This document shows, in pieces, positions 6,367 through 37,136 of a DNA stretch of 37,397 nucleotides. How positions within the stretch are numbered: the stretch's first letter is position 1; each line of letters starts with the position of its first letter. The translations under genes and the position numbers were made by a program. The notes beneath the pieces are model-generated. The model worked only from the letters and a program-made list of their open reading frames with translations. It was not told the DNA's origin and did no database searches. The stretch is from Gammaproteobacteria bacterium (GTDB lineage Bacteria > Pseudomonadota > Gammaproteobacteria > JAJPIJ01), in assembly GCA_022071965.1 (NCBI GenBank), contig JAJVIQ010000008.1, forward strand, positions 1 through 37,397, read 5' to 3'.

Positions 6367-6532
6367 CGGACCATTCCCCGGATCCGCTCTTCGTTCATTC
6401 CTTTGCTAAAACCTTTGCTAGACCGGCGCATCACGACAAGTCCTAACAAAGACCTATGTGCCTGTTTCAAAAGGCCTTGCGGACAACAAACCGCGCCGTG
6501 ATTCGCGTTTCTGGTCGGAATTCCTTGCCAAG
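6367..6532 (-). promoter_or_regulatory. hsdR upstream region with tandem TAGCAAAGG
   Basis: This is the only sizeable gap in the type I operon, and it is noticeably richer in A and T than its neighbours. On the minus strand it contains two copies of TAGCAAAGG (6420-6412 and 6408-6400) twelve bases apart. A 12-codon frame from an ATG at 6399 ends in TGA that overlaps the hsdR ATG. The repeat could be an operator or simply a doubled ribosome-binding region. I do not see a convincing -35/-10 pair. Confidence 0.3.
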
Positions 6533-11456: not shown

Positions 11457-11459
11457 GGC

Positions 11460-12593: not shown

Positions 12594-12595
12594 CG

Positions 12596-14575
12596 CTATC
12601 GCACTCCCCCGATGATCTCGCCGAGCAACCCCTCGGTCTCCTTCTCGAGCGCGAGGATGTCCGCGCGGATCTCCTCCAAGGTGCGCAGCGGCTGGGGCTT
12701 GTAGAAGTAGCGGGTGAAGCTGATTTCGTAGCCGGTCTTGAGGCTCTCCGGCACGTACCAGGCGTCGGGCGCGTGGGGCAGCACTTCGCGTCGGATGAAG
12801 GCCTCGATGCCACCATCCTCCAGCAGCGGCACCTGCTCGGTATCGCGCAGGTCGGAGTCGGGCTCGTACTCGACTACGGCAGGCTTGCCGCCGATCGTGG
12901 CCGCGAACAATCCGCGCAGCGGGTCGGCCGCGGCGCCCTTCTTGTGGATCTTTCGGATCGCCGGCGGCGCGTCGTCGGCGCGCTCAGCAGTCACCTTGAG
13001 CGCCTTGATTTCCTTCGGCGTATACGCGCGCTCAGGGTCGATGCCCTTCAGGCGCAGCGGCCGCTCGACGGTCACCTTCCAATAGCCGAAGGCGGCGTTT
13101 GGGAAGAGCTTCGACTGCTCAGCCTCCTCGAACTTCAGGAACGCGTCGCAGATGCGCGCGATGTCGTCGTCCGACACCTCGCAGTTCTTCTTGCCCAGGT
13201 TTTTGCGCAGCGGCTTGTACCACTGCGTAGCGTCGATGAGCTGCACCTTGCCCTGGCGGTGCGCCGGCTTGCGGTTGGTGAGCACCCAGATGTAGGTGGC
13301 GATGCCGGTGTTGTAGAACATGTTGAGCGGCAGCGCGACGATGGCTTCGAGCCAGTCGTTCTCAATGATCCAGCGGCGGATGTTGCTCTCGCCCTGGCCC
13401 GCGTCGCCGGTGAACAGCGACGAGCCGTTGTGCACCTCGGCAATCCGGCTGCCGAGCTTGGTGCCACGCTTCATCTTGCTGAGCATGTTGGCCAGGAACA
13501 GCATCTGGCCGTCGCTCGAGCGGGTGATGAGCGAATACTCGGGGTCGCCGGCGTGTTCGATGAGGAAGCGCGGATCCTTGATGCCGTCTTTGCCGCCCAT
13601 GCGCTCGAGGTCGCTCTTCCAGCTCTTGCCGTAGGGCGGGTTGCTGAGCATGAAGTCGAACTCGCGCGATGGAAACGCGTCGTTGGCGAGCGTGGAATGT
13701 TCCGGGCCTCCGACGATGTTGTCTGCAGCATCGCCTTCGCCCTTGAGCAGCAGGTCGGCCTTGCAAATTGCGTAGGTCTCGGCGTTGATCTCCTGCCCGT
13801 AGAGGTGGGTGGCGACCTGCTTTCCGTGCTGCGCCGCAAGCTCCCGCAGCGTCTCCTCTGCGACGGTGAGCATGCCGCCCGTGCCGAGGGCGCCGTCGTA
13901 GAGCAGGTACGTGCCCGATTCGATCTCGTCGGCAATCGGCAGGAAGATCAGCTTCGCCATGAGCTTGACGGCGTCGCGCGGCGTCCAGTGTTCGCCGGCT
14001 TCTTCGTTGTTCTCTTCGTTGAAGCGCCGGACCAGCTCCTCGAACACGGTGCCCATGCCGTGGTTGTCCAGACCAGGGTACTTGACCGAGCCGTCGCCTT
14101 TGAGCACCAGGTTCGGGCTCAGGTTGATGTCTGGCGAGAGGAACTTCTCGATCAGCGTGCCGAGCGCGTCGGCCTTCGAGAGTCGCGGGATCTGGTTACG
14201 GAACTCGAAGTTTTCGAGGATGTCCTGCACGTTCGGCGAGAATCCGTCGAGGTAGGCCTCGAAGTCCGCCTTTAGCTGCTGCTGGCTGGCACGTGACCTG
14301 AGAGCGCGCAGTGTGAACTTCGACGTGTTGTAAAACGCCTGTCCGGCGGCCTGCCGTAATGCTTGGTCCTGATGCACAATCTTCGCTTTGTCAAGCGAAG
14401 TCTTCATGTCGAGCACGGCCTGCTTCGTCGGCTCGAGCACGGCATCGAGGCGACGCAGTACGGTCATTGGCAATATGACGTCGCGGTACTTGCCGCGGAT
14501 ATAGAGATCCCGGAGCACGTCGTCGGCGATGCCCCAGATAAAGTTGGCTATCCAGTTGAGCTGTTGCGGTTCCAT
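12596..14575 (-). CDS. hsdM: Type I restriction methylase subunit M
   Basis: N6-adenine methyltransferase subunit, 659 residues. The helical HsdM_N domain opens the protein (NWIANFIWGIADDVLRDL, VLRRLDAVLEPTK). SAM-binding motif I appears as LLYDGALGTGGMLT near residue 226; the usual Cys before GTGG is Leu. The catalytic motif IV is DFMLSNPPYGKSW near 311. The C-terminal helical extension (RADILALEKETEGLLGEII) is the type that contacts HsdS. Its start ATG overlaps the stop codon of an upstream frame (TGATG at 14577-14573), so it was probably once the second gene of the operon. It leads the surviving operon, ahead of DUF4062. Confidence 0.92.
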   Translation of the reverse strand: MEPQQLNWIANFIWGIADDVLRDLYIRGKYRDVILPMTVLRRLDAVLEPTKQAVLDMKTSLDKAKIVHQDQALRQAAGQAFYNTSKFTLRALRSRASQQQLKADFEAYLDGFSPNVQDILENFEFRNQIPRLSKADALGTLIEKFLSPDINLSPNLVLKGDGSVKYPGLDNHGMGTVFEELVRRFNEENNEEAGEHWTPRDAVKLMAKLIFLPIADEIESGTYLLYDGALGTGGMLTVAEETLRELAAQHGKQVATHLYGQEINAETYAICKADLLLKGEGDAADNIVGGPEHSTLANDAFPSREFDFMLSNPPYGKSWKSDLERMGGKDGIKDPRFLIEHAGDPEYSLITRSSDGQMLFLANMLSKMKRGTKLGSRIAEVHNGSSLFTGDAGQGESNIRRWIIENDWLEAIVALPLNMFYNTGIATYIWVLTNRKPAHRQGKVQLIDATQWYKPLRKNLGKKNCEVSDDDIARICDAFLKFEEAEQSKLFPNAAFGYWKVTVERPLRLKGIDPERAYTPKEIKALKVTAERADDAPPAIRKIHKKGAAADPLRGLFAATIGGKPAVVEYEPDSDLRDTEQVPLLEDGGIEAFIRREVLPHAPDAWYVPESLKTGYEISFTRYFYKPQPLRTLEEIRADILALEKETEGLLGEIIGGVR

Positions 14576-20518: not shown

Positions 20519-20599
20519 GACGGAGCCGGCGAATCGCGCACGCATTCGGTGCATGCGGACTTGTGTGAGCGAGGCGGCGTTTCGAATTGCAACCGGCCG

Positions 20600-20629
20600 T
20601 TGCGCCGCAAAATTCGCTGTGCATAGAAT
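20600..20629 (+). promoter_or_regulatory. Candidate sigma70 promoter for serC
   Basis: TTGCGC (20600-20605) and TAGAAT (20624-20629) are separated by 18 bases, and the serC ATG lies 32 bases beyond. The stretch is more AT-rich than its surroundings. It is a reasonable match but not a strong one. The rest of 20519-20661 holds no gene I can support. Confidence 0.4.
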
Positions 20630-20661
20630 GCGACTACGTTCATGAGTCGCCGAAGGGGATC

Positions 20662-21807
20662 ATGAGACCGTCGCTGTTGCCGGCGCGCCCGTACTTTTCG
20701 TCCGGGCCCTGCGCCAAGCGTCCTTCGTGGACGCACGAAGTGCTGCATGATGCGGTGCTGGGCCGTTCCCATCGCTCCGAGATCGGGCACGATCGGCTGC
20801 GCGCACTGCTCACACTCAGCCGCGATCTGCTCGGCCTGCCCGAGGACTACCGCATCGCCGTCGTGCCCGGCTCCGACACCGGCGCCGTCGAGATGGCGTT
20901 GTGGTCGCTGCTCGGCGCCCGCGGTGTGGACTGCCTCGCCTGGGAGAGCTTCGGGCTGGGCTGGGTCGAGGACATCAGGTCGGCGCTGAAGATCACGGAC
21001 CTGCGCGTCCTCAGGGCCGACTACGGCGAGCTGCCCGATCTCGCGCAGGTCGACTGGCGGCGCGACGTGGTCTTCACCTGGAACGGCACCACCTCCGGCG
21101 TGCGCGTGCCCGACGGCGCGTGGATCGCCGATGACCGCGAGGGCCTGTCGATCTGCGACGCCACCTCGGCGGTGTTCGCGATGGATCTGCCCTGGCGCAA
21201 GCTCGACGTGGCGACCTACTCCTGGCAGAAGGTGCTGGGCGGGGAGGCCGCGCACGGCATGCTGATCCTGGGTCCGCGCGCGGTAGCGCGGCTGGAGAGC
21301 CACACGCCGCCCTGGCCGATCCCCAAGGTCTTCCGCCTGACGAAGAAGGGCAAGCTGACCGAGGATCTCTTCACCGGCGCCACCATCAATACGCCGTCAC
21401 TCCTGTGCGTGGAGGATCACCTCGACGCGCTGCGCTGGGCCCGGTCCCTCGGCGGCCTGCAGGCGCTCATCGCCCGCTCGATCGCCAACCTCGACGCCAT
21501 CGGGCAATGGGTCGAGAGAACGCCATGGGTGGAGTTCCTCGCCGCCGATCCGCGGGCGCGCTCCAACACCTCGGTGTGCCTGAAGATCGTCGACCCGTGG
21601 TTCACGGCACAGTCGCTCGAGGAGCGCTGGGCGATCGTGAAAACGCTGTGCGCGCGTCTGGAAGACGAGCAGGCCGCCTACGATATCGCCGCCTACCGCG
21701 ACGCGCCGCCGGGCCTGCGGATCTGGTGCGGCGCCACCGTCGAGCGCGAGGACGTCGAGCGCCTGCTGCCCTGGCTCGACTGGGCCTATCACGACATGGC
21801 GCGCTGA
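20662..21807 (+). CDS. serC: Phosphoserine aminotransferase
   Basis: Converts 3-phosphohydroxypyruvate and glutamate to phosphoserine and 2-oxoglutarate with PLP. The 381-residue protein starts at ATG 20662 (MRPSLLPARPYFSSGPCAKR), with GAAGGGG just ahead. Motifs include VPGSDTGAVEMALWSLLG near residue 75, CDATSAVFAMDL, and the PLP-lysine region ATYSWQKVLGGEAAHGM. This matches the SerC subfamily found in Methanosarcina and alphaproteobacteria rather than the E. coli form. It heads a row with serA and serB, giving the whole phosphorylated serine route; a 91-base gap precedes serA. No fault is seen in the reading frame. Confidence 0.9.
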   Translation: MRPSLLPARPYFSSGPCAKRPSWTHEVLHDAVLGRSHRSEIGHDRLRALLTLSRDLLGLPEDYRIAVVPGSDTGAVEMALWSLLGARGVDCLAWESFGLGWVEDIRSALKITDLRVLRADYGELPDLAQVDWRRDVVFTWNGTTSGVRVPDGAWIADDREGLSICDATSAVFAMDLPWRKLDVATYSWQKVLGGEAAHGMLILGPRAVARLESHTPPWPIPKVFRLTKKGKLTEDLFTGATINTPSLLCVEDHLDALRWARSLGGLQALIARSIANLDAIGQWVERTPWVEFLAADPRARSNTSVCLKIVDPWFTAQSLEERWAIVKTLCARLEDEQAAYDIAAYRDAPPGLRIWCGATVEREDVERLLPWLDWAYHDMAR

Positions 21808-21898
21808 TCGCCCGCGCGGAGAATGGCACGATGCGCGCACGTTGAAGGCGCGGCCATTGAATCCGTCCGGACAACGACCCGAAGGAGTGGATAGCAGC

Positions 21899-23482
21899 AT
21901 GTACTCGATACTCGTGGCAGACGCCATCGCCCGGGAGGGCGTGGCCCACCTCACCGACCAGCCCGGCTTCCGCGTCGACGTGAAGACCGGCATGAAGGAG
22001 GCGGAGCTCCGCGCCTGTGTGGCCGACTACGATGCCGTGGTCGTGCGCAGCGCGACGAAGATCACCCGCCCGGTGTTCGAGGCGGCGAAGCGGCTCAAGG
22101 TCGTCGGGCGCGCCGGCATCGGTGTGGACAACATCGATGTGGAGGCTGCCACCGAGCACGGCGTGGTGGTGATCAACACCCCCGACGCCAACGCCGTGAG
22201 CGCCGCGGAGCTCGCGCTCGCGCACCTGTTCTCGCTCTGCCGGCGCCTGCCGGCGGCCGATGCCTCGGTGAAGGCCGGCGAGTGGGCGCGCGGCAGGTAC
22301 ACCGGCACCGAGGTGACCGGCAAGACCCTGGGCGTGATCGGCTACGGCACCATCGGCCGCATCGTCGCGGCGCGCGCGCTGGGTCTGAAGATGAGGGTCG
22401 TGGCCCACGATCCGTTCGTGAGCGCGGAGATCTACGCCGCGCACGGCGTGCAGCCGCTGGCGCTCGATGACCTGCTCGCCGGCTCGGACTTCGTCACCCT
22501 GCACTGCCCGCTCATCGAGCAGACCCGGAACCTCCTCAGCCGCGAGCGGCTGGCGCTGATGAAGCCGGGCGCGCGGCTCATCAACTGCGCACGCGGCGGG
22601 CTCGTCGACGAAGAGGCGCTGCACGACGCGCTGGTCTCGGGGCATCTGGCCGGTGCGGCGCTCGACGTGTTCATGAAGGAGCCGCCGGGCTCCTCGCCGC
22701 TGCTCGCGCTCGCCAACGTCGAGTGCACGCCGCACCTGGGCGCCTCCACCGAGGAGGCGCAGTTCGCGGTCGGCGTGGAGATCGCCCGCCTCGTCGCCGC
22801 CTATCTCATCGACGGCGAGGTGGTGAGTGCCGTCAACCTGCCGCGCGTGGCGAGCGAGCAGGCCGGCCGGCTGCGGCCCTACCAGGACCTCGCGCACCGC
22901 CTCGGGCGTCTTCTCGCGCGCATGATCGACGCGCCGCTGCAGGGCATCGAGGTCTCGCTGCAGGGCGCCGCCGGCGAGCTCGACACCCGCCCCGTGGCCA
23001 TCGAGGCCCTGGTCGGCTACCTGCAGGAGCACCACACCCGGCCGGTCAACCGCGTCAACGCCCTGCTGGTCGCCGACCGCGAGGGCCTGGCCTTCGGCGA
23101 GTCGCGCTCACTGAAGGCGCACGATTACGTCTCGCTCATCGTCGTCACCGGCAGGGCCGCCGATCGCGGCGTCGTGCTCATGGGCACGCTGTTCGACGAG
23201 CGCTATCCGCGCCTGGTGCGCATCGACAACTACGAGATCGAGGCGGGGCTGAAGGGCGACATGCTGTTCACGCGCCACGACGATCGCCCCGGCGTGGTCG
23301 GCGCGCTCGGCACGGTGCTGGGCGAGAGCGGCATCAACATCTCGCGCATGCACATCGGCAGCGCCGAGGATAGCCCGCACGCGGTGGCGGCGATCGAGAT
23401 GTCCACGCCGCTCACCGACGCGCAGATGGAGCGGATCCGGTCGATCCCCGCGGTGAGCAAGGCGTTCCAGGTCACGCTATGA
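21899..23482 (+). CDS. serA: D-3-phosphoglycerate dehydrogenase (long form)
   Basis: Oxidises 3-phosphoglycerate with NAD+ as the first step of serine synthesis. The 527-residue protein is the long type. The substrate-binding fold opens with YSILVADAIAREG. The NAD-binding fold has LGVIGYGTIGRIVAARALG near residue 145. The catalytic Arg, Glu and His sit in INCARGGLVDEEAL and TPHLGASTEEAQ. An ASB domain follows, and the C-terminus is an ACT domain (DRPGVVGALGTVLGESGINI) that usually senses serine. The start at ATG 21899 has AAGGAG upstream; a further in-frame extension to 21842 lacks support. The stop overlaps serB by four bases, so feedback control of both is likely shared. Confidence 0.95.
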   Translation: MYSILVADAIAREGVAHLTDQPGFRVDVKTGMKEAELRACVADYDAVVVRSATKITRPVFEAAKRLKVVGRAGIGVDNIDVEAATEHGVVVINTPDANAVSAAELALAHLFSLCRRLPAADASVKAGEWARGRYTGTEVTGKTLGVIGYGTIGRIVAARALGLKMRVVAHDPFVSAEIYAAHGVQPLALDDLLAGSDFVTLHCPLIEQTRNLLSRERLALMKPGARLINCARGGLVDEEALHDALVSGHLAGAALDVFMKEPPGSSPLLALANVECTPHLGASTEEAQFAVGVEIARLVAAYLIDGEVVSAVNLPRVASEQAGRLRPYQDLAHRLGRLLARMIDAPLQGIEVSLQGAAGELDTRPVAIEALVGYLQEHHTRPVNRVNALLVADREGLAFGESRSLKAHDYVSLIVVTGRAADRGVVLMGTLFDERYPRLVRIDNYEIEAGLKGDMLFTRHDDRPGVVGALGTVLGESGINISRMHIGSAEDSPHAVAAIEMSTPLTDAQMERIRSIPAVSKAFQVTL

Positions 23483-24168
23483 GACGCGGGGCCTTCTTCG
23501 ACTGCGACAGCACGCTCTCCGCCGTGGAGGGCATCGACCTGCTCGCACGCCGCGCCAACGTCGCCGCGCAGGTGGTGCCGCTCACGAAGGCGGCGATGGA
23601 GGGCAGTCTGCCGCTCGAGCAGGTGTACGCGCAGCGCCTGGAGCTCATCAGGCCCGCGCGCGCGGACGTGACCTGGCTCGGCGCGCAGTACGTCGAGCAG
23701 CGCGCCGCCGGCGCCGCGGAGACGGTGGCCGCCCTGCACGCGCTCGGCTGGCAGGTGCACATCATCAGCAGCGGCATCCGCGAGGCCGTGCTCGCGCTCG
23801 CCGCCGATCTGTGCATTCCCCCCGAATGCGTGCACGCGGTGGCGGTGCACTTCGATGCCGCGGGCGCCTACCGGGACTTCGATCGCGCCTCGCCGCTCAC
23901 GCGCGCCGGCGGCAAGGCCGCCGTCTGCCGCTGGCTCATGGCCCGACTGGACCGCGCGGTCATGATCGGCGACGGCGTGACCGATCTCGAAGCGGCGGAG
24001 GCCAACGTGCCCGTGGTGGGCTACGGCGGCATCGCGCGGCGCGAGCGGGTGGCCGCGCAGGCATGGCGGTACGTCGACGCACCCTCCCTCACCGCGGTGC
24101 TGGATGTCATACTTGGCCCGGCCGATCACGCGCGGCTCGCGGGCCAGTCCGGCACGCCGAAGCCGTGA
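23479..24168 (+). CDS. serB: Phosphoserine phosphatase (HAD family)
   Basis: Removes phosphate from phosphoserine to give serine. The 229-residue protein has the HAD motifs in order: FFDCDSTLSAVEG near residue 7 (nucleophile Asp and acid Asp), VHIISSGIREA (motif II Ser), a Lys in TRAGGKAAVCRW, and AVMIGDGVTDLEAAEA (motif IV). It lacks the N-terminal ACT-like domain seen in some SerB proteins. The ATG overlaps the serA stop (ATGA), so the two are translationally coupled. It is followed after a short gap by gcvT. With SerC and SerA it completes the pathway in one operon. Confidence 0.9.
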   Translation: MRRGAFFDCDSTLSAVEGIDLLARRANVAAQVVPLTKAAMEGSLPLEQVYAQRLELIRPARADVTWLGAQYVEQRAAGAAETVAALHALGWQVHIISSGIREAVLALAADLCIPPECVHAVAVHFDAAGAYRDFDRASPLTRAGGKAAVCRWLMARLDRAVMIGDGVTDLEAAEANVPVVGYGGIARRERVAAQAWRYVDAPSLTAVLDVILGPADHARLAGQSGTPKP

Positions 24169-24228
24169 GGCATGAGCCGCGGCCACACCGGCCGCCGGGC
24201 CAGAGAACGATACGCAAGGAATGAGGGC

Positions 24229-25380
24229 TTGACGCAGACATCCGCCGACGAGGGCATCGCGGACGGCCGGCGAACGCCGCTCCACGAGCTGCACGTGCAG
24301 GCCGAGGCGCAGTTCACGGAGTTCGCCGGCTGGCAGATGGCGCTGCGCTATCCGGAAGGCACGCTGCGCGAGCACCTGCACACGCGCGCCCACGCGGGGC
24401 TCTTCGACATCTCGCACATGGGCCAGATCGCGCTGCGCGGCGCGCGCCGGGCCGCGGCGCTGGAGGCGCTCACCCCGGCGGACGTGATCGATCTGCCTGC
24501 CGGCCGCCAGCGCTATGCGCTGCTCACCAACCGCGGCGGCGGCATCATCGACGATATCGTCGTCGCCAACATGGGCGCGGAGCTCCTGCTCGTGGTGAAC
24601 GCCGCGCGCACCGCCACCGTGCTGCCGTATCTCGTCGAGGAGATCGGCAGCGCCTGCGAGATCCGGCATCTCGACGACCTCGCCCTGCTCGCCGTACAGG
24701 GCCCGGAGGCGGCCGCGGCGGTCGAGACGCTGGCCGCCGGGCTCGGAGACCTGCCGTTTCAGTCCGTGTGCACGCCCGAGATCGACGGCGCGCCCTGCCG
24801 CGTCAGCCGCTCGGGCTACACCGGCGAGGACGGCTACGAGATCGCCGTGCCGGCACCCGATGCCTGCGACCTCGCCCGCCGGCTGCTGGCGCAGGAGGGC
24901 GTGCGGTGGATCGGTCTCGGCGCGCGCGACTCGCTCAGGCTCGAGGCCGGCCTCTGTCTTTACGGGCACGACATCGACGACACTACCACCCCGCTCGCCG
25001 CGGGCCTGGGCTGGACGTGGCCGACGGTGCGGCGCCCGGGCGGCGCGCGCGCCGGGGGATTTCCGGGTGCCGGGGAACTCGCGGACGAGCTCGCCGCCGG
25101 CTCCGCGACGCGCCGCGTGGGCCTGCTGCCGGAGGGCCGCGCGCCGCTGCGCGAGAACACGGGCCTGCTGGACGAGGATGGCAACATCGTCGGCCGCATC
25201 ACCAGCGGGCTCTTCAGCCCGACCCTCGGTCGACCCATCGCCATGGGTTACCTGCGCGCGGACCACGCGGCGGCCGCCACCACCCTGCGCGCGATGCTGC
25301 GCGGCCGCGCGCTCACCGTCGCCCGCGCCGCGCTGCCGTTCGTGCCGCATCGCTATCAAAGAAAATCCAACGAGCCCTGA
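24229..25380 (+). CDS. gcvT: Glycine cleavage system T protein (aminomethyltransferase)
   Basis: Takes the aminomethyl group from lipoylated GcvH and transfers the one-carbon unit to tetrahydrofolate, releasing ammonia. Family similarity begins at RTPLHELHVQAEAQFTEFAG. Further motifs are AHAGLFDISHMGQIALRG near residue 50, DDIVVANMG, and SRSGYTGEDGYEIAVPAP with the folate-binding face. The C-terminus has GRITSGLFSPTLGRPIAMGY. I prefer the TTG at 24229, with AAGGA eight bases ahead. An ATG at 24172, three bases after the serB stop, would add 19 residues that do not look family-like. It is co-directional with gcvH (13-base gap) and gcvP. Confidence 0.9.
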   Translation: MTQTSADEGIADGRRTPLHELHVQAEAQFTEFAGWQMALRYPEGTLREHLHTRAHAGLFDISHMGQIALRGARRAAALEALTPADVIDLPAGRQRYALLTNRGGGIIDDIVVANMGAELLLVVNAARTATVLPYLVEEIGSACEIRHLDDLALLAVQGPEAAAAVETLAAGLGDLPFQSVCTPEIDGAPCRVSRSGYTGEDGYEIAVPAPDACDLARRLLAQEGVRWIGLGARDSLRLEAGLCLYGHDIDDTTTPLAAGLGWTWPTVRRPGGARAGGFPGAGELADELAAGSATRRVGLLPEGRAPLRENTGLLDEDGNIVGRITSGLFSPTLGRPIAMGYLRADHAAAATTLRAMLRGRALTVARAALPFVPHRYQRKSNEP

Positions 25381-25393
25381 AGGAGACGCACCC

Positions 25394-25774
25394 ATGTCCG
25401 AGCTCAAGTACTCCCGCGATCACGAGTGGCTGCACATGGAGCCCGACGGCACCGCGACCATCGGCATCACCGACTACGCGCAGAAGGAGCTCGGCGACGT
25501 CGTCTACGTGGAACTGCCCGAGGTCGGCCGCGAGGTGCGCCAGGGCGAGGAGGCCGCCGTGGTCGAATCGGTGAAGGCCGCGAGCGAGGTCAGGATGCCG
25601 GTGGCCGGCACCGTCGTCGCCGTCAACACCGCGCTGGCCGAACACCCCGAGACGGTGAACGTCGATCCGTCCGGCGACGGCTGGTTCCTGAAGCTGAAGC
25701 CCTCCAGCCCCGATCAGATCACCGGCCTGATGAGCGAGGCGGAGTACCAGGCCTACGTCGCCGGCATCAAGTGA
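25394..25774 (+). CDS. gcvH: Glycine cleavage system H protein
   Basis: The lipoyl carrier protein that shuttles the aminomethyl intermediate between GcvP, GcvT and the lipoamide dehydrogenase. The 126-residue product has the lipoylation site in [13 protein letters not shown] (Lys near residue 64) and the typical flanks [28 protein letters not shown] and NPSGDG-like [18 protein letters not shown] sits eight bases before ATG 25394. It lies between gcvT and gcvP with 13- and 16-base gaps, so the three are one transcript. Lipoyl attachment needs lipA, lipB or lplA elsewhere. Confidence 0.96.
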
Positions 25775-25790
25775 CGCGGGAGCGAGGCCG

Positions 25791-28703
<2,913 letters not shown>

Positions 28704-29076
28704 CCCGCGTCGCGCCTCGGCTGCGACATGGCGCGCGCATTCACCGGCGCGCGATCATGAAGCGGCCGCGGTTCAGGCCGATGTGCTATCCCCCTGATGC
28801 CTCCCACGCCGCCCCGGCGGTGGGCGGCAGGCGCGCCCTCGATGCCTTCAGCGCGCGTGCGAGCTGACGGGCCGCACTCCCCGGCGCGGCCTTCCTTCGC
28901 GGCGGCACTGGCCCCATCGACGCGTCCAATCCGGCGGCGAACTGGCCCCATTGGCACCAGATCAGTTTTCCATCGCGGCCCTTTCTCCGATCGATGCACG
29001 GTTCGAAGATGGTCATCGGGGAAAAAGGGGGAACTCCCGCCCCCTGAGTCGGGATGAGCCGCGAGGAGGACGTCTC
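28704..29076 (+). promoter_or_regulatory. Leader region of the hao cluster with a repeated motif
   Basis: This 373-base gap has no supported gene. CGGCGGC-ACTGGCCCCAT (ending 28917) recurs as CGGCGGCGA-ACTGGCCCCAT (ending 28951), with the shared 11 bases starting 34 bases apart. That is a candidate regulator or sigma-factor-linked site ahead of haoA. A GC-rich stem at 28803-28824 (CCCACGCCG and CGGCGGTGGG with one bulge) could end the gcv transcript but lacks a T-run. GAGGAGG at 29063-29069 is the haoA ribosome-binding site. Confidence 0.35.
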
Positions 29077-30798
29077 ATGGTCACGAAAAGAAGAAGTGGT
29101 GTCTCGTGGTCGTTGGCAGTGGTGTCCGCAGTAGTACTGGGTTGCGCATCGGCCGGCCCCGCGCAGGCCGACATCCCGAAGGAGACTTTCGAGGCGCTGA
29201 AGCTCGATCCCTCGGCCGGGCCGAAGGAGCTGCACGAGGCGCTCACCAAGCGCTACCGGGATCCGGAGCAGGGCGCCGGCAAGGGCAAGTACTCCGAGCT
29301 GTGGGAACCCATCCCCATGAGCAAGTACACCGACCCCCTGACCTTCTATGAGCCGCCGGCGACGGTGAAGGAAGTGGCGGGCCGCAAGGATTGCGTGGAG
29401 TGCCACGCCGACGAGACCCCGGGCTGGGTCGACGCGTGGAAGAAGAGCGTGCACTCGAAGCTCGACGATGTCCGCGCCCTCAAGCCCGACGACCCGACCT
29501 ATTACAGGAAGCAGAAGCTGGAAGAGGTCGAGAAGAACCTGCGCGCGATGGGCAAGCTCGCCGCCGACGCCCCGCTGAAGGAGGTCGGCTGCATCGACTG
29601 CCACGTGGACATCGGCACCGACAAGAAGGCCGACCATCGCACCGACCTGCGCCTGCCGACCGCCGACATCTGCGGCACCTGCCACCTGCAGGAGTTTGCC
29701 GAGCGCGAGTCGGAGCGCGACACGCAGATCTGGCCGAAGGACCAGTGGCCCAAGGGCCGTCCGTCGCACGCGCTGGACTATCGCGCCAACGTGGAGACCG
29801 GCATCTGGGCCGGCATGCCGCAGCGCGAGGTGGCCGAGGGCTGCACCCTGTGTCATTACAATCAGAACAAGTGCGACGGCTGCCATACCCGGCACGAGTT
29901 CTCCACGGTCGAGGCGCGCAAGCCCGAGGCCTGCGCGACCTGTCACAGCGGCATCGACCACAACAATTACGAGAACTACTCCTATTCCAAGCACGGCATC
30001 GTCTACAAGACCCTGGGCCACGAGTGGAACTGGAACGTGCCGTTGAAGGACGCCTTCGCCAAGGGCGGCCAGACCGCGCCGACCTGCGCCACCTGCCACA
30101 TGGAGTACAACGGCAAGTTCTCGCACAACGTGGTGCGCAAGGTGCGCTGGGCGAATTACCCGGCGGTTCCGGGCATCGCCGAGAATATCAAGGACAAGTG
30201 GTCCGAGGAGCGCAAGGAGGCCTGGGTCGTGACCTGCACCAACTGCCATGGCGAGCGCCTGGCCCGTTCCTACCTCGAACTGATGGACGAGGGGACGCTG
30301 GCCGGCGTCGAGAAATACAAGGAGACGCACGCGGTCGTCGACAAGCTCTACCAGGAAGGCCTGCTGCCGGGGCAGAAGACGAACCGTCCGCCGCCGCCGG
30401 CGCCGGAGAAGGAGGGAATGGCCCAGTTCTACCAGTATTTCTGGACCAAGGGCAACAACACCACGGCGGTCGAGTTCGAGGTCGGCTCGATGGGCGAGAA
30501 CCAGCTCGCGAAGATGCACGTCTCGCTGGCGCACGTGAACCCCGGCAACTGGAGCTACTCCGACGGGTGGGAGCAGCTCAACGCTTCCTATGCGAAGGTC
30601 ATGCAGTATGACACCGAGATCCGCGAGCGCGTGGCGTTGCAGGAAAGGGTCGCCAAGCTCGAGGGGGGCTCGCCGACCGCGATGCTGAAGCTCGACAGCG
30701 CCGGGAAGATGGTCTCGCTCGGCAGTCTCGGCGGCGGCATGCTGCTGGCCGGCTCCGTGATGTTCTGGCGAGGTCGCCGCAGGGATGGCGAGGAGTGA
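29077..30798 (+). CDS. haoA: Hydroxylamine oxidoreductase, octahaem cytochrome
   Basis: Periplasmic enzyme that oxidises hydroxylamine, the product of ammonia monooxygenase, and passes electrons to c554. The 573-residue precursor has a signal peptide ([20 protein letters not shown]). Eight CxxCH haem sites are seen: CVECH, CIDCH, CGTCH, CTLCH, CDGCH, CATCH, CATCH and CTNCH. The [11 protein letters not shown] stretch and the later [15 protein letters not shown] are HAO-like. The fourth site would hold the P460 haem by analogy. Tyr494 in NWSYSDG is my candidate for the Tyr that crosslinks P460; alignment is needed. The C-terminus has a hydrophobic run ([18 protein letters not shown]) and a basic end, so it may be membrane-anchored. 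haoB follows closely. Confidence 0.94.
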
Positions 30799-30820
30799 TG
30801 GCAACCCGAGGAGCGATCAG

Positions 30821-31846
30821 GTGAGACGTGTGGCTCCGGTCGCGGGCATCGGGCTCGCGGCCGGAGGCGCCCTCCTGCTCGGCTGGATCGGCTGGGCGGT
30901 CCTCGGCCTGTCGTCGCCGCCGCCCTATCACTATACGCTCGTCGCCGAGGGCGGCGTCGGGAAATTCCCGGAGCTCGGGATGAAGGATCAGGCCGGGCTC
31001 GCACTGAAGAAATACGAAGTCCGCGCCGATTCCGCCGGCAAGCCCGTCGCCACGGCCCTCGTCGCAGCCAAGGGCGGCGGCGCACCGGTGCTGCTGTCGT
31101 GGGAGAACAGCACCGCCGAGCCGGTGCTCAGGCTGGGGCCCGCGGTCGGCGAGCTGACCACGCTCGCCGCGGCGGTCGCCCGCCACGCGCCAGGGCAGTC
31201 CAGGATCCTCGCCTGGTGGGATACCTCCCGGCAACTGCAGCTGCTTGCGGGCAGCAACGTCGTATTCGAGGAGAACCTGGTCGCGCCGCTGCTCCTCCCG
31301 CCGCCGTGGCGCGCGGCGGAGAAGTCCATCGTTTCCCTGGAACGCGACTTCTGGCGCGCCCCCGCCTCGGCGCGGACAGAGCGGCAGTTCGCCGAGTTCG
31401 CCGACGCGATGCTCTCCGATCTGCCTGCCGGGCTGGAGAAGCTGCGCCGGCTCGCCGGCGGCACCGAGGCCTACGTGGTCGTCCACATCACCGACGCCTA
31501 CCGCCTGGGCGCCCTGTATCCCGCGCGATTCGGCGTCGGCTTCAAGGATTTCCGCATGGCCGGCCAGGTGCACGGCACGATCAACGGCGTGAAGAGCTGG
31601 CTGAAGAAAGAGGGCTATCCCGCCTACGCCGTGGAGCGCCGGGACGACACCACCGTGCGCGTGCACTTTCTCACCGACAAGGCGTCCACGCGCACGCTCG
31701 CCGCGCAGTTGCTGCCGTTCGACACCTCCACCCCCCTCGCCCTGGATGCCCCGCGCATCGTCTATCAGCACGGCGGCTACTGGGTCTACAAGCTCTCGCC
31801 GGGCGCCCGGAAGGTCGAGACCGCCGCGGCCGGCCCGCGGCCCTGA
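30821..31846 (+). CDS. haoB: HaoB, protein of the hao cluster
   Basis: A 341-residue protein of the HaoB family, always found next to haoA; its exact role is not established. Residues 6-25 form a membrane segment (AGIGLAAGGALLLGWIGWAV), and the rest (YHYTLVAEGGVGKFPELGMK, AYVVVHITDAYRLGALYPAR, FGVGFKDF) is probably periplasmic. I prefer the GTG at 30821 because GAGGAG lies seven bases ahead. An ATG at 30785 inside haoA would extend the protein by 12 residues. It has no haem motif. The gene starts 22 bases after the haoA stop, so the two share a transcript. Confidence 0.85.
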   Translation: MRRVAPVAGIGLAAGGALLLGWIGWAVLGLSSPPPYHYTLVAEGGVGKFPELGMKDQAGLALKKYEVRADSAGKPVATALVAAKGGGAPVLLSWENSTAEPVLRLGPAVGELTTLAAAVARHAPGQSRILAWWDTSRQLQLLAGSNVVFEENLVAPLLLPPPWRAAEKSIVSLERDFWRAPASARTERQFAEFADAMLSDLPAGLEKLRRLAGGTEAYVVVHITDAYRLGALYPARFGVGFKDFRMAGQVHGTINGVKSWLKKEGYPAYAVERRDDTTVRVHFLTDKASTRTLAAQLLPFDTSTPLALDAPRIVYQHGGYWVYKLSPGARKVETAAAGPRP

Positions 31847-31970
31847 GCCGGCCGGCATCCCTTCTGGCACCAGAAAGCAGTCCGCCGCTGGCCCTAAGAG
31901 CCATCGCAATCCTGCGCTTACATTAGGACCACGAGTCTCGCGCGTTCACGACTGAAAGGAGAGATGCCAC

Positions 31971-32690
31971 ATGCGGACCTCCAGCATATTGCTCAGGGCG
32001 TTGTTTGCGGTGGGCGCGGCAGCCATCCTCGCGGGACCCGTCCTCGCCGAGGAGCCTGCCTACGAGGGGCGCAAGAAGTGCAGCTCCTGCCACAAGAGCG
32101 AGTACAAGTCCTGGGTAGAGACCAGACATGCCAAGGCGCTGGAGTCGCTGATGCCCGGCGCCAAGACCGAGGAGAAGCTCAAGGCCAAGCTCGACCCCGA
32201 CAAGGACTACAGCGCCGACAAGGACTGCGTGGGCTGCCACGTCACCGGCTACGGCAAGGAGGGCGGCTACGATCCGGAGGACCCGGGCAAGTACCTCGTC
32301 GGCGTCGGCTGCGAGTCCTGCCATGGCCCGGGCTCCGAGTACCGCCTCGTCCACCGCAAGGCCGGTGAGGCGTTCGAGAACAAGCAGGAGACAACCCCCC
32401 GCGAAGAGCTTGCCGCCGCCGGTCAGGAGTTTCACTTCATCGAGCGCTGCAACGCCTGCCACCTGAATTTCGAGGGCTCCTCGTGGCCGGGCGCCGCCAA
32501 GCCGTACACGCCGTTCACGCCCGCGGTCGATCCGAAATATACGTTCGACTTCGAGAAGGCCGTGCGCGACAACAAGGCGATGCACGAGCACTACAAGCTC
32601 GACGGCACGTTCACCGGGGAGCCGATGCCTGAATTCCACAAGGAGTTCCAGTCGCAGGCCAAGGCCGGCGAGAAGGGCGCGGAGGAGTAG
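31971..32690 (+). CDS. cycA: Tetrahaem cytochrome c554
   Basis: Periplasmic electron carrier that takes electrons from HAO and hands them to cM552. The 239-residue precursor has a cleavable signal (LLRALFAVGAAAILAGPVLA) and four CxxCH sites: CSSCH, CVGCH, CESCH and CNACH. Segments typical of c554 are YEGRKKCSSCHKSEYKSW and VGVGCESCHGPGSEYRLVHR. GGAGA lies nine bases ahead of ATG 31971. The 124-base gap after haoB has a small TTCTGG-CA-CCAGAA palindrome at 31862-31875 and nothing else I can name. Its presence, with cycB, is the main argument for an ammonia oxidiser rather than a methanotroph. Confidence 0.9.
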   Translation: MRTSSILLRALFAVGAAAILAGPVLAEEPAYEGRKKCSSCHKSEYKSWVETRHAKALESLMPGAKTEEKLKAKLDPDKDYSADKDCVGCHVTGYGKEGGYDPEDPGKYLVGVGCESCHGPGSEYRLVHRKAGEAFENKQETTPREELAAAGQEFHFIERCNACHLNFEGSSWPGAAKPYTPFTPAVDPKYTFDFEKAVRDNKAMHEHYKLDGTFTGEPMPEFHKEFQSQAKAGEKGAEE

Positions 32691-32699: not shown

Positions 32700-33284
32700 A
32701 TGCGAGCCCTCTGCCGCTATATCGGGGCTCACCGCGGACCGTTTCTGCTCGGCGCCGTGTCCGCCGTCGTCCTGGCGACGCTCGTCGTCGGGGGTGACGC
32801 GGCGATCTCGACGACCACTTTCTGCACCAGCTGCCACGAGATGACCTACCCGGCCCAGGAGCTGAAGAAGTCGACCCACTACGGCGCGCTCGGCGCCGAT
32901 CCGGATTGCCATGACTGCCATATCCCGAAGGGGATCGCGAACTTCCACCGCGCCGTCGCCACGCACCTGCTCGACGGCGCGCGCGAGACCTGGCTGCATT
33001 TCAGACGCGATTACTCCGACGTCAAGAAGTTCAACAAGTACCGCCTGGAGATGGCGCACCACGCGCGCATGAACCTCAAGCGCTGGGACAGCGTCACCTG
33101 CCGCGACTGCCACAGGAACCCGCGGCCGCCCGGCGCCCCCGCCCGCGAGGCGCACGCGAAGATGGCGACCCAGGGGGCCACCTGCATCGACTGCCACCAG
33201 AACCTCGTGCATCGGGAGGTCGACGAGACCGATCTGGACAGGAGCCTGGCGGAAGGCAAGATGGTCGTGCGCGTGGTGGAGTAG
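32700..33284 (+). CDS. cycB: Tetrahaem membrane cytochrome cM552 (NapC/NirT family)
   Basis: Membrane-anchored quinone reductase that passes electrons from c554 into the ubiquinone pool. The 194-residue protein has an N-terminal membrane segment (LGAVSAVVLATLVVGGDAAI) and four CxxCH sites: CTSCH, CHDCH, CRDCH and CIDCH. The CTSCHEM and GPDxCHDCHIPKG arrangement is that of NapC/NirT proteins. The ATG at 32700 follows the cycA stop by nine bases. The hao cluster ends here, with a likely terminator 85 bases further on. The proposed electron route is HaoA to CycA to CycB to quinone. Confidence 0.9.
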   Translation: MRALCRYIGAHRGPFLLGAVSAVVLATLVVGGDAAISTTTFCTSCHEMTYPAQELKKSTHYGALGADPDCHDCHIPKGIANFHRAVATHLLDGARETWLHFRRDYSDVKKFNKYRLEMAHHARMNLKRWDSVTCRDCHRNPRPPGAPAREAHAKMATQGATCIDCHQNLVHREVDETDLDRSLAEGKMVVRVVE

Positions 33285-33368
33285 GCGATGGCGGCAAGCC
33301 GCCCCGGGGGCCCGCGCCGCCTCCGGACCTGGTCTGCGCCGCCATCCCGGACGTTTATCCGGCCCAGG

Positions 33369-33397
33369 GCACGGCGGCGCGGCCGGTGCGGTTTTTT
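33369..33397 (+). terminator. Candidate rho-independent terminator of the hao operon
   Basis: GCACGGC pairs with GCC-G-GTGC (one bulge) around a GGCGCG loop, followed by GG and six T residues (33392-33397). It lies about 85 bases after the cycB stop and is the best terminator-like structure in the window. The rest of 33285-33469 holds no gene. Confidence 0.5.
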
Positions 33398-33469
33398 GAT
33401 CCAACGCAATGCCGGGGCGCAAGTAAGCTGCTTGAGTAAAAAAAGGATCACCGGCGAGGCGTGGGACAG

Positions 33470-35008
33470 ATGCAACTGCCAATCGTACTGTGCCAGACCG
33501 CGCGGCAGCCATTGCAGCGGCAGCTGTTCGACCAGATCCGCGAGCTGGTCCTGAGCGGCCGCCTGAAGCCCGGCACGCCGCTGCCCGCGAGCCGCGCGCT
33601 GGCCGATCAGCTCGGCGTGTCGCGCAACACCGTGCTGCTCACCTACGAGCAGCTCCTCGCCGAGGGCTACCTGCAGACGCGCCAGGCGGTCGGCACCTAC
33701 GTGAGCCTGGAGCTGCCCGAGGGATGCCTGGCCGCGCGCCGCGCGCCGGACGAGCCGGCCGCCGAGGCGGGCGTGCACACCTGCCCGCACCCGCTGCCCT
33801 TCAAGGGCCGCAGCCAGGCGCTGGTGAATCCGCATCCCCTCGCCTACGACTTCTGGCTGGGGCGGCCCGACCCGCATTCCTTCCCGATCAAGGCCTGGCA
33901 CCGGCTCACCAACCGGGCGCTGGCCAGTGCCGGGACGCGCTTCACCGAGTACCGCGAGCCGGCGGGGCTGTTCGAGCTGCGCAAGGCGATCGTCGATCAT
34001 CTCGGGCCCGCGCGGGGCATCTCCGCCAGCCCCGATCAGGTCGTGATCGTCGCCGGCTCGCAGGGCGGACTCAATCTCATCGCGCGGCTGCTGGTGCGGG
34101 AGGACTGCCGCGTGGCCACGGAGAACCCCTGCTACCAGGGCGCGGCGTTTCTCTTCGAGAGCCATCGCGCCGAGCTGCTGCCCGTGCCGGTCGACGAGGA
34201 TGGCATCGTCGTCGATCTGCTGCCCCGCAGCGGCGTGCAGCTCCTCTACGTGACGCCTTCGCACCAGTACCCCATGGGCTTCATGATGTCGCTGGAGCGG
34301 CGGCTGCGGTTGCTCGACTGGGCGCGCCGCAGCGGGGCCTACATCATCGAGGACGACTACGACAGCGATTTCCGCTACCGCGGATCGCCGCTCACCGCGC
34401 TGCAGGGGCTGGATCGGCACGACAGCGTCATCTATCTCGGCACGTTCTCCAAGTCGATGGGTGCCGCGCTGCGGCTGGGGTACCTCGTGCTCCCGCGGCA
34501 ACTGGTCGAGCCGGCTCGCACTGCCAAGGCGCTGATCGACAACGGCCATCCATGGCTCGACCAGGCCGTGATGGCGGAGTACATCGGCAGCGGCGCCTAC
34601 GACACCCATCTGCGGCGCATACGGCAGATCTATCGCGAGCGCCGCGACTGCCTGCTCGAGCGTCTCCAGCATCACTTCGGCGAAGTCGTCATCACCGGCC
34701 AGGACGCCGGCATGCACGTCGCATGGCACCTGCCGCGCTCGTTTCCGCAGGCCCGCGCGCTGCAGGACCTGGTGGCGGCCAAGGGGGTGGGCATCTATTC
34801 GCTGCAATCGGGCGCGGCCTACGACTTCGGCGGTTGCGCCTACAGCGAGCGCACCGTCGTGCTCGGATTCTCCTCGCTCGACGAGCGGCACATCCGCGCG
34901 GGCATCGATCGCCTCGCCGAGGTCATCGCGCGCAACCGCAGCGCACCCGCCCACGCGACGGCGGCGGACAGCGTGCATCCGCCGCTCACCACGAACCTGA
35001 CGCTATGA
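33470..35008 (+). CDS. MocR-type (GntR/aminotransferase) transcriptional regulator
   Basis: A 512-residue fusion of a GntR winged helix and a type I aminotransferase fold. The N-terminus has QPLQRQLFDQIRELVLSGRL and ALADQLGVSRNTVLLTYEQL. After a linker, the aminotransferase part has SASPDQVVIVAGSQGGLNLI, LYVTPSHQYPMGFMMSLERR and YIIEDDYDSDFRYRG, with the PLP lysine in YLGTFSKSMGAALRLG. MocR proteins bind PLP and regulate genes for vitamin B6 or amino-compound metabolism. ATG 33470 is preferred since GAGG lies ten bases ahead; GTG 33461 is an alternative. No target can be named: it sits between hao and ccm, with PLP-dependent gcvP and serC not far away. It has its own transcript after the terminator. 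Confidence 0.88.
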   Translation: MQLPIVLCQTARQPLQRQLFDQIRELVLSGRLKPGTPLPASRALADQLGVSRNTVLLTYEQLLAEGYLQTRQAVGTYVSLELPEGCLAARRAPDEPAAEAGVHTCPHPLPFKGRSQALVNPHPLAYDFWLGRPDPHSFPIKAWHRLTNRALASAGTRFTEYREPAGLFELRKAIVDHLGPARGISASPDQVVIVAGSQGGLNLIARLLVREDCRVATENPCYQGAAFLFESHRAELLPVPVDEDGIVVDLLPRSGVQLLYVTPSHQYPMGFMMSLERRLRLLDWARRSGAYIIEDDYDSDFRYRGSPLTALQGLDRHDSVIYLGTFSKSMGAALRLGYLVLPRQLVEPARTAKALIDNGHPWLDQAVMAEYIGSGAYDTHLRRIRQIYRERRDCLLERLQHHFGEVVITGQDAGMHVAWHLPRSFPQARALQDLVAAKGVGIYSLQSGAAYDFGGCAYSERTVVLGFSSLDERHIRAGIDRLAEVIARNRSAPAHATAADSVHPPLTTNLTL

Positions 35009-35162
35009 GCATGAGGCGCGGCGTGGCGCGGGCGCACACGGGCCGCCGGCCCGCCGGCGCCAGGCGATGCGGCGCAACGGCTGCCCATGCCGGCCCTTCG
35101 GGCGTCATCCCGCCGGCGCGCAGGGCGGCCTCCACACGGCAGGCGCGAGACGCGCCAGGGGC

Positions 35163-37136
35163 ATGATCCCGGAGCTCGGACATCTTGCCCTGATCGTCGC
35201 CCTGACTCTGGCGATGACACTGGGCGTGCTGGCGATCGCCGGGGCGCAGCGCGGCAACGTCCGCTGGATGGCGGTGGCACGGCCCGCGGCGCGCGGTCAG
35301 TTCGCATTCGTCGCGATCGCCTTCCTCTGCCTGACCTACACCTTCGTCAGCAACGACTTCTCGGTCCACTACGTCGTCTCGAACTCCAATTCGCGCCTGC
35401 CGCTCGCGTACCGGATCGCCGCGGTCTGGGGCGGACACGAAGGCTCGCTGCTGCTGTGGACCCTTTGTCTCTCGGCGTGGATGCTCGCGGTCACCTTCTT
35501 CAGCCGCCACCTGCCCGAAGCGATGGTCGCGAGGGTCCTGGGCGTCATGGGACTGGTTTCCGTCGGCTTCCTCGTTTTCATGCTCTTCGCCTCCAATCCC
35601 TTCGGGCGGGTGCTGCCCGCCGCCCCGGAGGGCAGCGACCTGAACCCGCTGCTCCAGGACCCCGGGATGGTCGCGCACCCGCCGCTGCTCTACATGGGCT
35701 ACGTCGGCTTCTCGGTGGCATATGCCTTCGCGATCGCGGCGCTGCTCGGCGGGCGGCTCGACGCCACCTGGGCGCGCTGGTCACGCCCCTGGACCACGAT
35801 CGCCTGGATGTTCCTGACGCTGGGGATCGCGGTCGGCAGCGGCTGGGCGTACTACGAGCTGGGCTGGGGCGGCTGGTGGTTCTGGGACCCGGTCGAGAAC
35901 GCCTCGCTCATGCCCTGGCTGGTCGGCACGGCGCTCATCCATTCGCTCGCGGTCACCGAGAAGCGCGGGGGCTTCCGCGCCTGGACGGTGCTGCTGGCGA
36001 TCTGCACCTTCGCGCTCAGCCTGCTCGGCACGTTCCTGGTGCGCTCGGGCGTGCTCTCCTCGGTCCACGCCTTTGCGACCGACCCGAGGCGCGGCACCTT
36101 CATCCTCGTGTTCCTGAGCGTGGTGATCGGCGCCTCGCTGGTCCTCTACGCGCTGCGGGCGCCGCGGGTCGGTGCCGGGGCCGGTTTCCATCCGATCTCG
36201 CGCGAGTCGATGCTGCTGGCGAACAACGTGCTGCTGCTGGTGGCCGCCGGCACGGTGCTGCTCGGCACGCTCTATCCGCTGTTCCTGGACGCGCTGGGGC
36301 TGGGCAAGATCTCCGTCGGGCCGCCCTATTTCGAGACCGTGCTGGTGCCGCTGGTGACGCCGGTGCTGTTCCTCATCGGCCTGGGGCCGATCGCGCGCTG
36401 GAAGAAGGCCGCGCTGCCCGAGCTGGCGACCCGGCTGCGCTGGGCGGCGGCGGTGGCGGCGATCACCGCGATGCTGTCGACGCTGGCGCTGGGGCGGTGG
36501 CGGCCGGCCGTCGCCTTCGGCCTGATCATGGCCGCCTGGATCGCCGCGAGCAGCATCGTGGCGCTGATCGGCAACGCCCGCGGCGCCGGGCGCATGGCCG
36601 TGCGCCTGGCCGCGATCCCGCGCGGCTATTGGGGCATGGTGCTCGCCCACCTCGGCCTGGCCGTGTTCGTCGCCGGGGTCACGCTGGTGCGCGGCTACGA
36701 GTCGTCGAAGGACGTGAAGATGCGGCGCGGCGACAGCGTGACACTCGCGGACAACGTCTTCACGATGCAGGCGCTCGGCGCCGCGGACGGACCGAACTAC
36801 ACGGCGACCCGCGCCACGATCACGGTGACGCGCGCCGGCGCGCCGGTGGCGACGCTCGAGCCCGAGAAGCGCGTGTACCACGCCAGCGGCATGGCCATGA
36901 CCGAAGCGGCCATCGACTGGGGGCTGATGCGCGATCTGTACGTGTCGATGGCCGAGCCGCTGGATCACGACACCTGGATCGTGCGCGTCCAGCACAAGCC
37001 CTTCATCAGCTGGATATGGCTGGGCTGCGTGGCGATGGCCGCCGGCGGCCTGCTCGCCGCCACCGACCGGCGCTACCGGCTGGCGGTGCGGCGCGGCCCC
37101 GTCCTGCACCCGGCGGCCGCGCCGGCGGCGGTGTGA
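35163..37136 (+). CDS. ccmF: Cytochrome c maturation protein CcmF
   Basis: Integral membrane part of the haem lyase that attaches haem to CxxCH motifs. The 657-residue protein starts at ATG 35163 (MIPELGHLALIVALTLAMTL); the longer frame from 35067 has a basic non-family extension. Many membrane segments are evident. The WWD domain is WGGWWFWDPVENASLMPWL near residue 236. Conserved His residues sit in WGGHEGSLLLW, VAHPPLLYMGY and the LVGTALIHSLAV region. It follows the MocR gene by 154 bases and precedes ccmH. The many haem proteins of the hao cluster make this neighbour logical. Confidence 0.94.
   Translation: MIPELGHLALIVALTLAMTLGVLAIAGAQRGNVRWMAVARPAARGQFAFVAIAFLCLTYTFVSNDFSVHYVVSNSNSRLPLAYRIAAVWGGHEGSLLLWTLCLSAWMLAVTFFSRHLPEAMVARVLGVMGLVSVGFLVFMLFASNPFGRVLPAAPEGSDLNPLLQDPGMVAHPPLLYMGYVGFSVAYAFAIAALLGGRLDATWARWSRPWTTIAWMFLTLGIAVGSGWAYYELGWGGWWFWDPVENASLMPWLVGTALIHSLAVTEKRGGFRAWTVLLAICTFALSLLGTFLVRSGVLSSVHAFATDPRRGTFILVFLSVVIGASLVLYALRAPRVGAGAGFHPISRESMLLANNVLLLVAAGTVLLGTLYPLFLDALGLGKISVGPPYFETVLVPLVTPVLFLIGLGPIARWKKAALPELATRLRWAAAVAAITAMLSTLALGRWRPAVAFGLIMAAWIAASSIVALIGNARGAGRMAVRLAAIPRGYWGMVLAHLGLAVFVAGVTLVRGYESSKDVKMRRGDSVTLADNVFTMQALGAADGPNYTATRATITVTRAGAPVATLEPEKRVYHASGMAMTEAAIDWGLMRDLYVSMAEPLDHDTWIVRVQHKPFISWIWLGCVAMAAGGLLAATDRRYRLAVRRGPVLHPAAAPAAV

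Follow-up and report, generated by a model that had tools for sequence, protein, structure and literature searches.

A MocR-type regulator recurrently encoded at hydroxylamine dehydrogenase (hao) genes of proteobacteria: a predicted operator and hydroxylamine as candidate signal

The MocR-type regulators PdxR, GabR and TauR are called activators in the sections consulted of PMC5320631, PMC6917764 and PMC10790758, and the operators of the family are made up, according to part of the first of these, of boxes that recur one or more helical turns apart and share a TGG/TGT core. In Pseudomonas aeruginosa, an excerpt of PMC10790758 describes MpaR as a MocR needed for a cyanide response, proposed to act via PLP-cyanide, and in Alcaligenes a point mutation of DnfR silences the dirammox dnf cluster (PMC12575085 and PMC9355588, both in part). 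As to hao itself, PMC3772326, in the portion available, stated in 2013 that there was no clear understanding of how this gene and its partners are regulated.

The MocR gene analysed here lies in a window of 37,397 nucleotides, i.e. the whole stretch of DNA examined, from a Gammaproteobacteria bacterium (contig JAJVIQ010000008.1), and is found between haoAB-cycAB and ccmF (Table 1). It resembles DnfR, the two being likened by description rather than by sequence or operator, in that both are MocR-family regulators encoded in a hydroxylamine-handling cluster; however, DnfR acts on the cluster of a diiron N-oxygenase (DnfA), whereas the window gene is placed beside an octahaem HAO, outside any dnfT1RT2ABCD cluster. 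The DnfR box is presumably TGGTCTGT, and no text giving it as such was found in the literature. With GabR of Bacillus subtilis the window MocR shares the two-domain architecture and the PLP residues, but not the ligands of the GABA carboxylate, H114, R207 and R430. PdxR of Bacillus clausii, whose model (NF052282) gives the best NCBIfam score, is similar also in having a pocket without carboxylate-binding arginines; it differs in its usual target pair, pdxST, and in the long branches that separate it from the hao-linked clade. Finally, MpaR and the proposed window regulator would have in common the sensing of a small PLP-reactive poison and the control of a neighbouring respiratory gene, whereas MpaR has cyanide as ligand, ccoN4 as target and a palindromic motif (PMC10790758, in part).

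Table 1. Genes and predicted regulatory sites of the hao region of the window
Feature	Position	Strand	Remarks
Extra upstream half box	28909..28916	+	TGGCCCCA
Extra upstream half box	28943..28950	+	TGGCCCCA
haoA, hydroxylamine dehydrogenase	28951..30798	+	837 bits to solved aerobic HAOs
Predicted hao operator	28952..28983	+	TGGCACCA-N16-CGGCCCTT
haoB	30785..31846	+	TIGR04392, 338 bits, cut-off 200
Second predicted operator, haoB-cycA intergenic	31865..31896	+	TGGCACCA-N16-TGGCCCTA
cycA, cytochrome c554	31971..32690	+	PF13435; NF043010 374 bits, below cut-off 400
cycB, NapC/NirT-type cytochrome, cM552-like, named by position	32700..33284	+	PF03264
MocR-type regulator gene	33461..35008	+	GTG 33461, in-frame ATG 33470; 515 aa; N-terminal wHTH and aminotransferase-like PLP domain
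ccmF/nrfE haem lyase	35163..37136	+	TIGR00353, 746 bits; ORF listed from 35067

The regulator shows, by Pfam, a GntR match at residues 19-81 (8e-16) and an Aminotran_1_2 match at 142-436 (3e-22), i.e. the GntR-type winged HTH, linker and fold-type-I aminotransferase-like domain of the MocR subfamily, and it scores 458 bits against the cut-off of 320 of its top NCBIfam model, PdxR. The first-pass annotation had placed a MocR gene between the hao and ccm genes, and these matches, together with the gene order, confirm it; the end given there, 35162, is instead the base before the likely ATG of ccmF (35163), the MocR stop being at 35008. As start, the ATG at 33470 fits the alignment better than the GTG at 33461. 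Several long ORFs overlap at this locus (33461-35008 and 33490-35166 on the + strand, 33011-34978 on the - strand), as is usual in other frames at such high G+C, and the family matches belong to the first of them. The window genome (98.7% complete) showed no further MocR, the profile search giving one match at E <= 1e-60 and tblastn two additional weak ones (1e-8 and 4e-6), covering only the aminotransferase part.

On sequence grounds, the window HAO is of the aerobic kind: besides the score reported in Table 1, it keeps the tyrosine of the HVNPGnWsY motif, Y536, which is invariant in the three HAOs compared and which we take to be the P460 cross-link tyrosine. A ribosome-binding-like GGAGG followed by an ATG at 29077 suggests that haoA truly starts at this position and, therefore, that the predicted operator is located upstream of the gene. 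A serC-serA-serB-gcvT-gcvH-gcvP set (20587-28703) directly precedes hao; besides the window, this occurs at hao only in the genome of the same genus (L009). The dnf cluster of Alcaligenes also includes phosphoserine-transaminase-like, SHMT-like and pyridoxal kinase genes (PMC9136411, in part). Further upstream, on the - strand (805-14575), there is a type I restriction-like island with HsdR-, HsdS- and HsdM-like genes, two genes similar to a phosphorothioate-DNA restriction enzyme and unnamed ORFs between them, all the restriction-like matches being below the NCBIfam cut-offs.

An orthologous MocR was found at hao in 20 of 41 distinct hao/haoB genomes (alpha-, beta- and gammaproteobacteria), a recurrence because of which the neighbourhood seen in the window can be considered no accident. 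The genomes were collected in two ways. Scanning species genomes with peptides of three HAOs gave 26 loci: 20 hao loci with 50-85% identity, of which 19 had a haoB match, and six distant cytochromes (L029-L034; <=32% identity and no haoB match), which were dropped. A MocR was at hao/haoB in 14 of these 20 loci, and in one more, L018, it was ~5 kb off, beside ccmF; the figure is biased to kin, since all three query HAOs come from MocR-bearing loci and two of them from the genus of the window. The HaoB-family searches, which are less biased, gave matches in 10 genomes out of 369 in the class, 6 of which have a MocR at hao, in 4 out of 385 in an alphaproteobacterial class (1 with the MocR so placed) and in 13 out of 379 in an order (3 so placed); overall, the MocR is at hao in 10 of 26 distinct genomes. 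Duplicates (L055/G123 = L011; G001/L009 = G369; G787 = G324) were counted once.

The position of the MocR gene in the 21 MocR-bearing loci is far from fixed. It is divergent from hao in seven (L008, L011, L015, L017, L019, L050 and L051), downstream of it in eight (the window, L009, L020, L025, L027, L028, L128 and L130), upstream and codirectional in five (L021, L022, L023, L024 and L026) and apart in L018, while the linked set consists of haoAB-cycAB or of haoAB alone; ccmF follows the MocR gene also in L009, L020, L025, L027 and Ruegeria. The pair thus stays constant through repeated rearrangement, which argues for a functional tie. On the megaplasmid of Ruegeria pomeroyi DSS-3 (L176, 6926-15506) the order is hao-haoB-mocR-ccmF-DsbE-cytochrome c biogenesis gene-TPR gene-hemA, so that genes for making HAO stand there with genes for haem attachment and with ALA synthase (hemA), a PLP enzyme; the MocR gene of this set is SPO_RS20830 and its protein WP_011241978.1. 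One Burkholderiaceae MAG (G381), possibly a mixed bin, holds two different hao-MocR loci (L021 and L130), of which one includes cycAB. On a plasmid of Jannaschia, a MocR (43%) is surrounded by genes for transport and other metabolic functions, and the 15 kb read there contained no hao.

In a tree of 48 sequences, 19 hao-linked MocRs and three not at hao group together in a single branch of 22 (SH-aLRT 99), to which 24 other MocRs, GabR and PdxR do not belong. The tree was built by a quick method, with SH-aLRT support and no bootstrap, leaving out L063 (= L090) and L069 (a 64-residue hit); long end branches were flagged for L074, L065, GabR, L072 and L091, and odd composition for seven rows including L024, of the hao set, and L062. 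Among the positions that set the hao-linked clade apart from the 24 other MocRs are D300, N358, W362 and Y443. In the class sample, the profile of hao-linked MocRs gave nine matches above 600 bits in seven genomes, six of which have the MocR at hao. As to clade members found elsewhere, G087 has a second one (L087, 8201-13592) beside molybdopterin oxidoreductase and cytochrome c genes, in a stretch with no hao-type element, and G210 has the counterpart of this second copy on a contig of 4.5 kb (L088); that of G200 (L086, 8359-9849) belongs to a genome with no haoB match and is followed, ~2 kb on, by the start of a PQQ dehydrogenase gene.

The first sign of a shared regulatory site was the motif TGGYNCCA, recurring in intergenic stretches of the MocR-bearing loci. 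Of 19 such loci, 16 had the box TGGNNCCA in the 300 bp preceding hao, with 30 boxes against a background of 0.00-0.15 per locus, and none of 10 MocR-less loci from 8 genomes had it there; in the 37 kb of the window, the 300 bp richest in this box are the hao promoter. The full element, YGGNNCCA-N16-YGGNNCTW, was found in all 21 hao promoters of the MocR-bearing loci, its half boxes being 24 bp apart in 20 of them and 23 bp in L022, any other spacing occurring in at most 4, and this arrangement fits the general operator rule of the family. In 17 MocR-less control promoters neither the box nor the paired element (CTT form) was detected. Over the complete loci, the element matched 32 times in 397 kb with MocR and 3 times in 342 kb without it, compared to 2 and 1 for the reversed pattern; the MocR-less group of this count includes L136, a contig piece of the MocR-bearing genome G381. 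One of the three MocR-less matches is in L100, away from hao, and two are in L010 (68-124), from an Arenicellales MAG, where the contig begins at hao and two matches face opposite ways, one of them pointing off the contig; a divergent mocR is therefore predicted beyond its end, and none was found in the rest of the assembly. The element was defined on the same loci in which it was counted; only L128 and L130 were fetched after the first box had been noticed, and both carry it. In the held-out hao promoter of Ruegeria there was no exact match, the best agreeing at 11 of 12 fixed positions and being tied with two other places in the locus.

Copies of the element were observed also at other promoters of these clusters. 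The one between haoB and cycA, followed in the window by a -10-like TACATT (31919-31924, by eye), has equivalents in L009 (12910) and L128 (9939). A copy faces mocR in 3 of the 7 divergent loci (L008, L011 and L015) and precedes the separate mocR of L018, and others are just before mocR in L128 and L130; no exact copy faces mocR in the divergent L017, L019, L050 and L051, nor is there one upstream of the window mocR. When the -10 score was averaged over 18 promoters, one peak appeared, 29 bp past the start of box B, the second box, and none of 5000 circular shifts reached it; at this position the hexamer of the window hao promoter is weak. Since the -10-like peak comes 29 bp after its start, box B would occupy the -35 position, a usual seat of an activator.

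To look beyond the hao clusters, 16 genomes (12 with the MocR and 4 without) were scanned with a stricter, YGGY, form of the element. In the window genome the full pattern matched three times, in the hao promoter, in the haoB-cycA stretch and inside a 626-aa ORF. Only the location of such matches carries weight, because their number in the window genome is not above that of the reversed control (3 against 5) and the MocR-less genome G617 has six, more than any of the 12 MocR-bearing genomes scanned. The matches inspected outside hao clusters were the third of the window genome and one of those of G001 (C87), which falls inside a 1876-aa ORF. The shorter pattern TGGYNCCATYGGYNCCA matched the window genome perfectly once, at the hao promoter, and once more with a single mismatch, between genes that by eye look flagellar. 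From these matches, the regulon looks narrow. The first-pass annotation had held that binding sites lying only at B6 or transport genes would refute its speculation, a sensor of hydroxylamine stress; the opposite was found, since two of the three genome-wide matches belong to the hao cluster, the third falling in a coding ORF, and pdxS was not found. This B6 gene (PF01680), the one searched for, was found in none of the 20 MocR-bearing genomes, while 10 of 14 control genomes were positive, and PdxR as function was rejected on this basis. A regulation of the ser/gcv genes was likewise discarded, these genes being at hao only in the same-genus genome and showing no element match in the window.

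The regulator had also been annotated as PLP-sensing, and its pocket agrees with this. The PLP residues of GabR, Y205, D279, Y281, K312 and R319, have invariant equivalents in 19 of 19 hao-linked MocRs, which in the window protein (numbered from the ATG) are Y222, D295, Y297, the lysine K328 and R335. The carboxylate clamp of GabR is missing: all 19 have a glycine in place of R207 and 18 of them have also lost R430, and the window protein has L, G and S in place of H114, R207 and R430 (roles of the GabR residues from part of PMC6917764). On the other hand, R207 is present in none and R430 in 4 of the 24 other MocRs, so that the loss of the clamp was dropped as a telling feature; as other MocRs also lack it, it permits, and does not prove, a small effector. 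Judged from its residues, the pocket could bind PLP and would admit small nucleophiles, hydroxylamine among them. Predicted with AlphaFold (mean pLDDT 82, low confidence at 85-115), the structure has the GabR/PdxR fold, and GabR and PdxR entries are among the best 50 structure matches listed. It superposes on PdxR 7pq9 with Z 40.9 and an rmsd of 2.4 over 356 residues, and on GabR 4n0b with Z 43.1 and an rmsd of 21.8 over 437 residues, the latter indicating that the domains are placed differently; the PLP domain fits GabR 6uxz with an rmsd of 2.1.

The first-pass annotation suggested to look for the MocR gene beside hao in other nitrifiers, and in this respect its expectation failed. In the window genome no match to subunit A of AMO/pMMO was found, and for this reason the organism is probably not a canonical ammonia oxidiser; the premise of a nitrifier was accordingly abandoned. 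Matches to subunit A came from 5 genomes in one set of 28 and from 6 in another of 14, i.e. from 11 of 41, as G381 was included in both searches, and from none of the 20 MocR-bearing ones. Conversely, no MocR was at hao in the 11 AMO/pMMO-bearing genomes in the sequence read, this being contigs of ~4 kb that end at the hao cluster for G835 and G1104, one of three hao copies for G879, G918, G955 and G1075, and all three copies for G324. Ten genomes have neither AMO nor a linked MocR (G370/L010, G372/L012, G373/L013, G219, G617, G512, G513, G986, G1046 and G1016), several of them on short contigs, with 19-20 kb read in G617 and G513 and a haoB fragment only in G1016. Nothing in the 16 MocR-less genomes searched, seven of which are AMO/pMMO carriers, scored above 600 bits with the profile of hao-linked MocRs; for most genomes these presence-absence counts come with no figure for completeness. 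In two alphaproteobacterial hao-haoB loci, L098 and L100, which have no MocR, no AMO and no promoter element at hao, hao would be under some other control. A 'GntR' gene (Noc0891) is listed beside haoA in the ammonia oxidiser Nitrosococcus oceani, changing little with ammonium or hydroxylamine (PMC3772326, Table 1), and, if it is a MocR of the hao clade, it may be an exception to the rule that the linked regulator occurs only without AMO. An activator triggered by hydroxylamine would be sensible where this compound comes from outside and hao is best made on demand, whereas ammonia oxidisers produce hydroxylamine continuously; on-demand induction fits the observed distribution of AMO.

The tie between MocR and hao is borne out by the recurrent neighbourhood in several arrangements, by the single MocR clade and by the element in the hao promoter, and the control of hao by this regulator, as judged by comparing genomes, is strongly supported. 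That it activates hao is likely, and hydroxylamine, via the PLP-oxime, is a plausible signal and the likeliest candidate, be it for a response to stress or for the induction of its own breakdown. The reading we consider probable is that the regulator, for which we use the working name HaoR, is a dedicated local activator of hao acting at the predicted operator, with hydroxylamine/PLP-oxime as signal. The sites bound by HaoR would be the direct repeats YGGYNCCA and YGGNNCTW, 24 bp or about two helical turns apart, with the second in place of the -35; they occur in the hao promoter and, in the window, before cycAB as well. From there HaoR would recruit the polymerase. At rest, PLP would be held on K328. 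Hydroxylamine reacts with PLP to give an oxime; being a small, strongly nucleophilic amine, it would displace K328 and leave the PLP-oxime in the pocket as a minimal 'external aldimine', throwing the switch as PLP-GABA does in GabR. Binding to the element, activation and the effector are, in this scheme, what we infer.

The signal could also be another one. MocR might regulate hao in response to the level of free PLP, as PdxR does, to an organic amine or to some other PLP-reactive metabolite, hydroxylamine having at most an indirect part, through depletion of PLP; the PdxR-like pocket with both arginines absent, and the NCBIfam score as PdxR, are in favour of this possibility, but it is hard to see why a pure sensor of PLP level should be placed only at hao, in genomes in which no pdxS was found (20 with MocR) and with promoter-placed matches, in the window genome, only at hao and cycA, and we regard it as rather unlikely. 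Box B at the presumed -35 is a place where a repressor could act as well, and in some loci a copy faces mocR, which suggests that the gene regulates itself, so that the protein may repress hao, or itself, until a signal releases it. We judge this improbable, since a direct repeat ending at -35, with the -10-like peak at constant distance, is a usual seat of an activator and PdxR, GabR and TauR are called activators in the sources cited at the outset. An ordinary PdxR or amino-acid-type MocR, next to hao by accident and acting on B6 or ser/gcv genes, would explain both the NCBIfam score above cut-off and the serC-serA-serB-gcvTHP set just upstream; with the linkage recurring in 20 of 41 genomes, ser/gcv at hao seen only within the genus, pdxS in 0 of 20 and no element at ser/gcv in the window, it is very hard to credit.

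While the MocR family is known, the hao-linked group, its predicted operator and its connection with hao were not met in the literature searched. For MocR/GntR with hydroxylamine, hao or nitrifiers, titles and the beginnings of abstracts of the papers listed, for the most part outside subscription journals, contained no description of a hao-linked regulator, and terms starting with hao, nitrif or Nitroso are absent from the main text of PMC5320631, a comparative study of MocR regulators. Our broader proposal, put forward tentatively and at somewhat less than even chances, is that this orthologous group would be the first PLP-based sensor of hydroxylamine, whose PLP-oxime would switch on hao, often with a dedicated haem-attachment gene, in AMO-less proteobacteria oxidising the hydroxylamine made by others, while the canonical ammonia oxidisers covered here produce hydroxylamine themselves and have no MocR at hao. 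If true, HaoR would be a natural hydroxylamine biosensor, and Ruegeria pomeroyi DSS-3, as a named carrier, makes a test practical. For many AMO-less carriers of hao, the question of how this gene is regulated receives a concrete answer, open to test, from a regulator that recurs at hao, with a defined predicted site, in 20 genomes, and the distribution of the hao-MocR pair suggests a guild of hydroxylamine users other than the classical nitrifiers.
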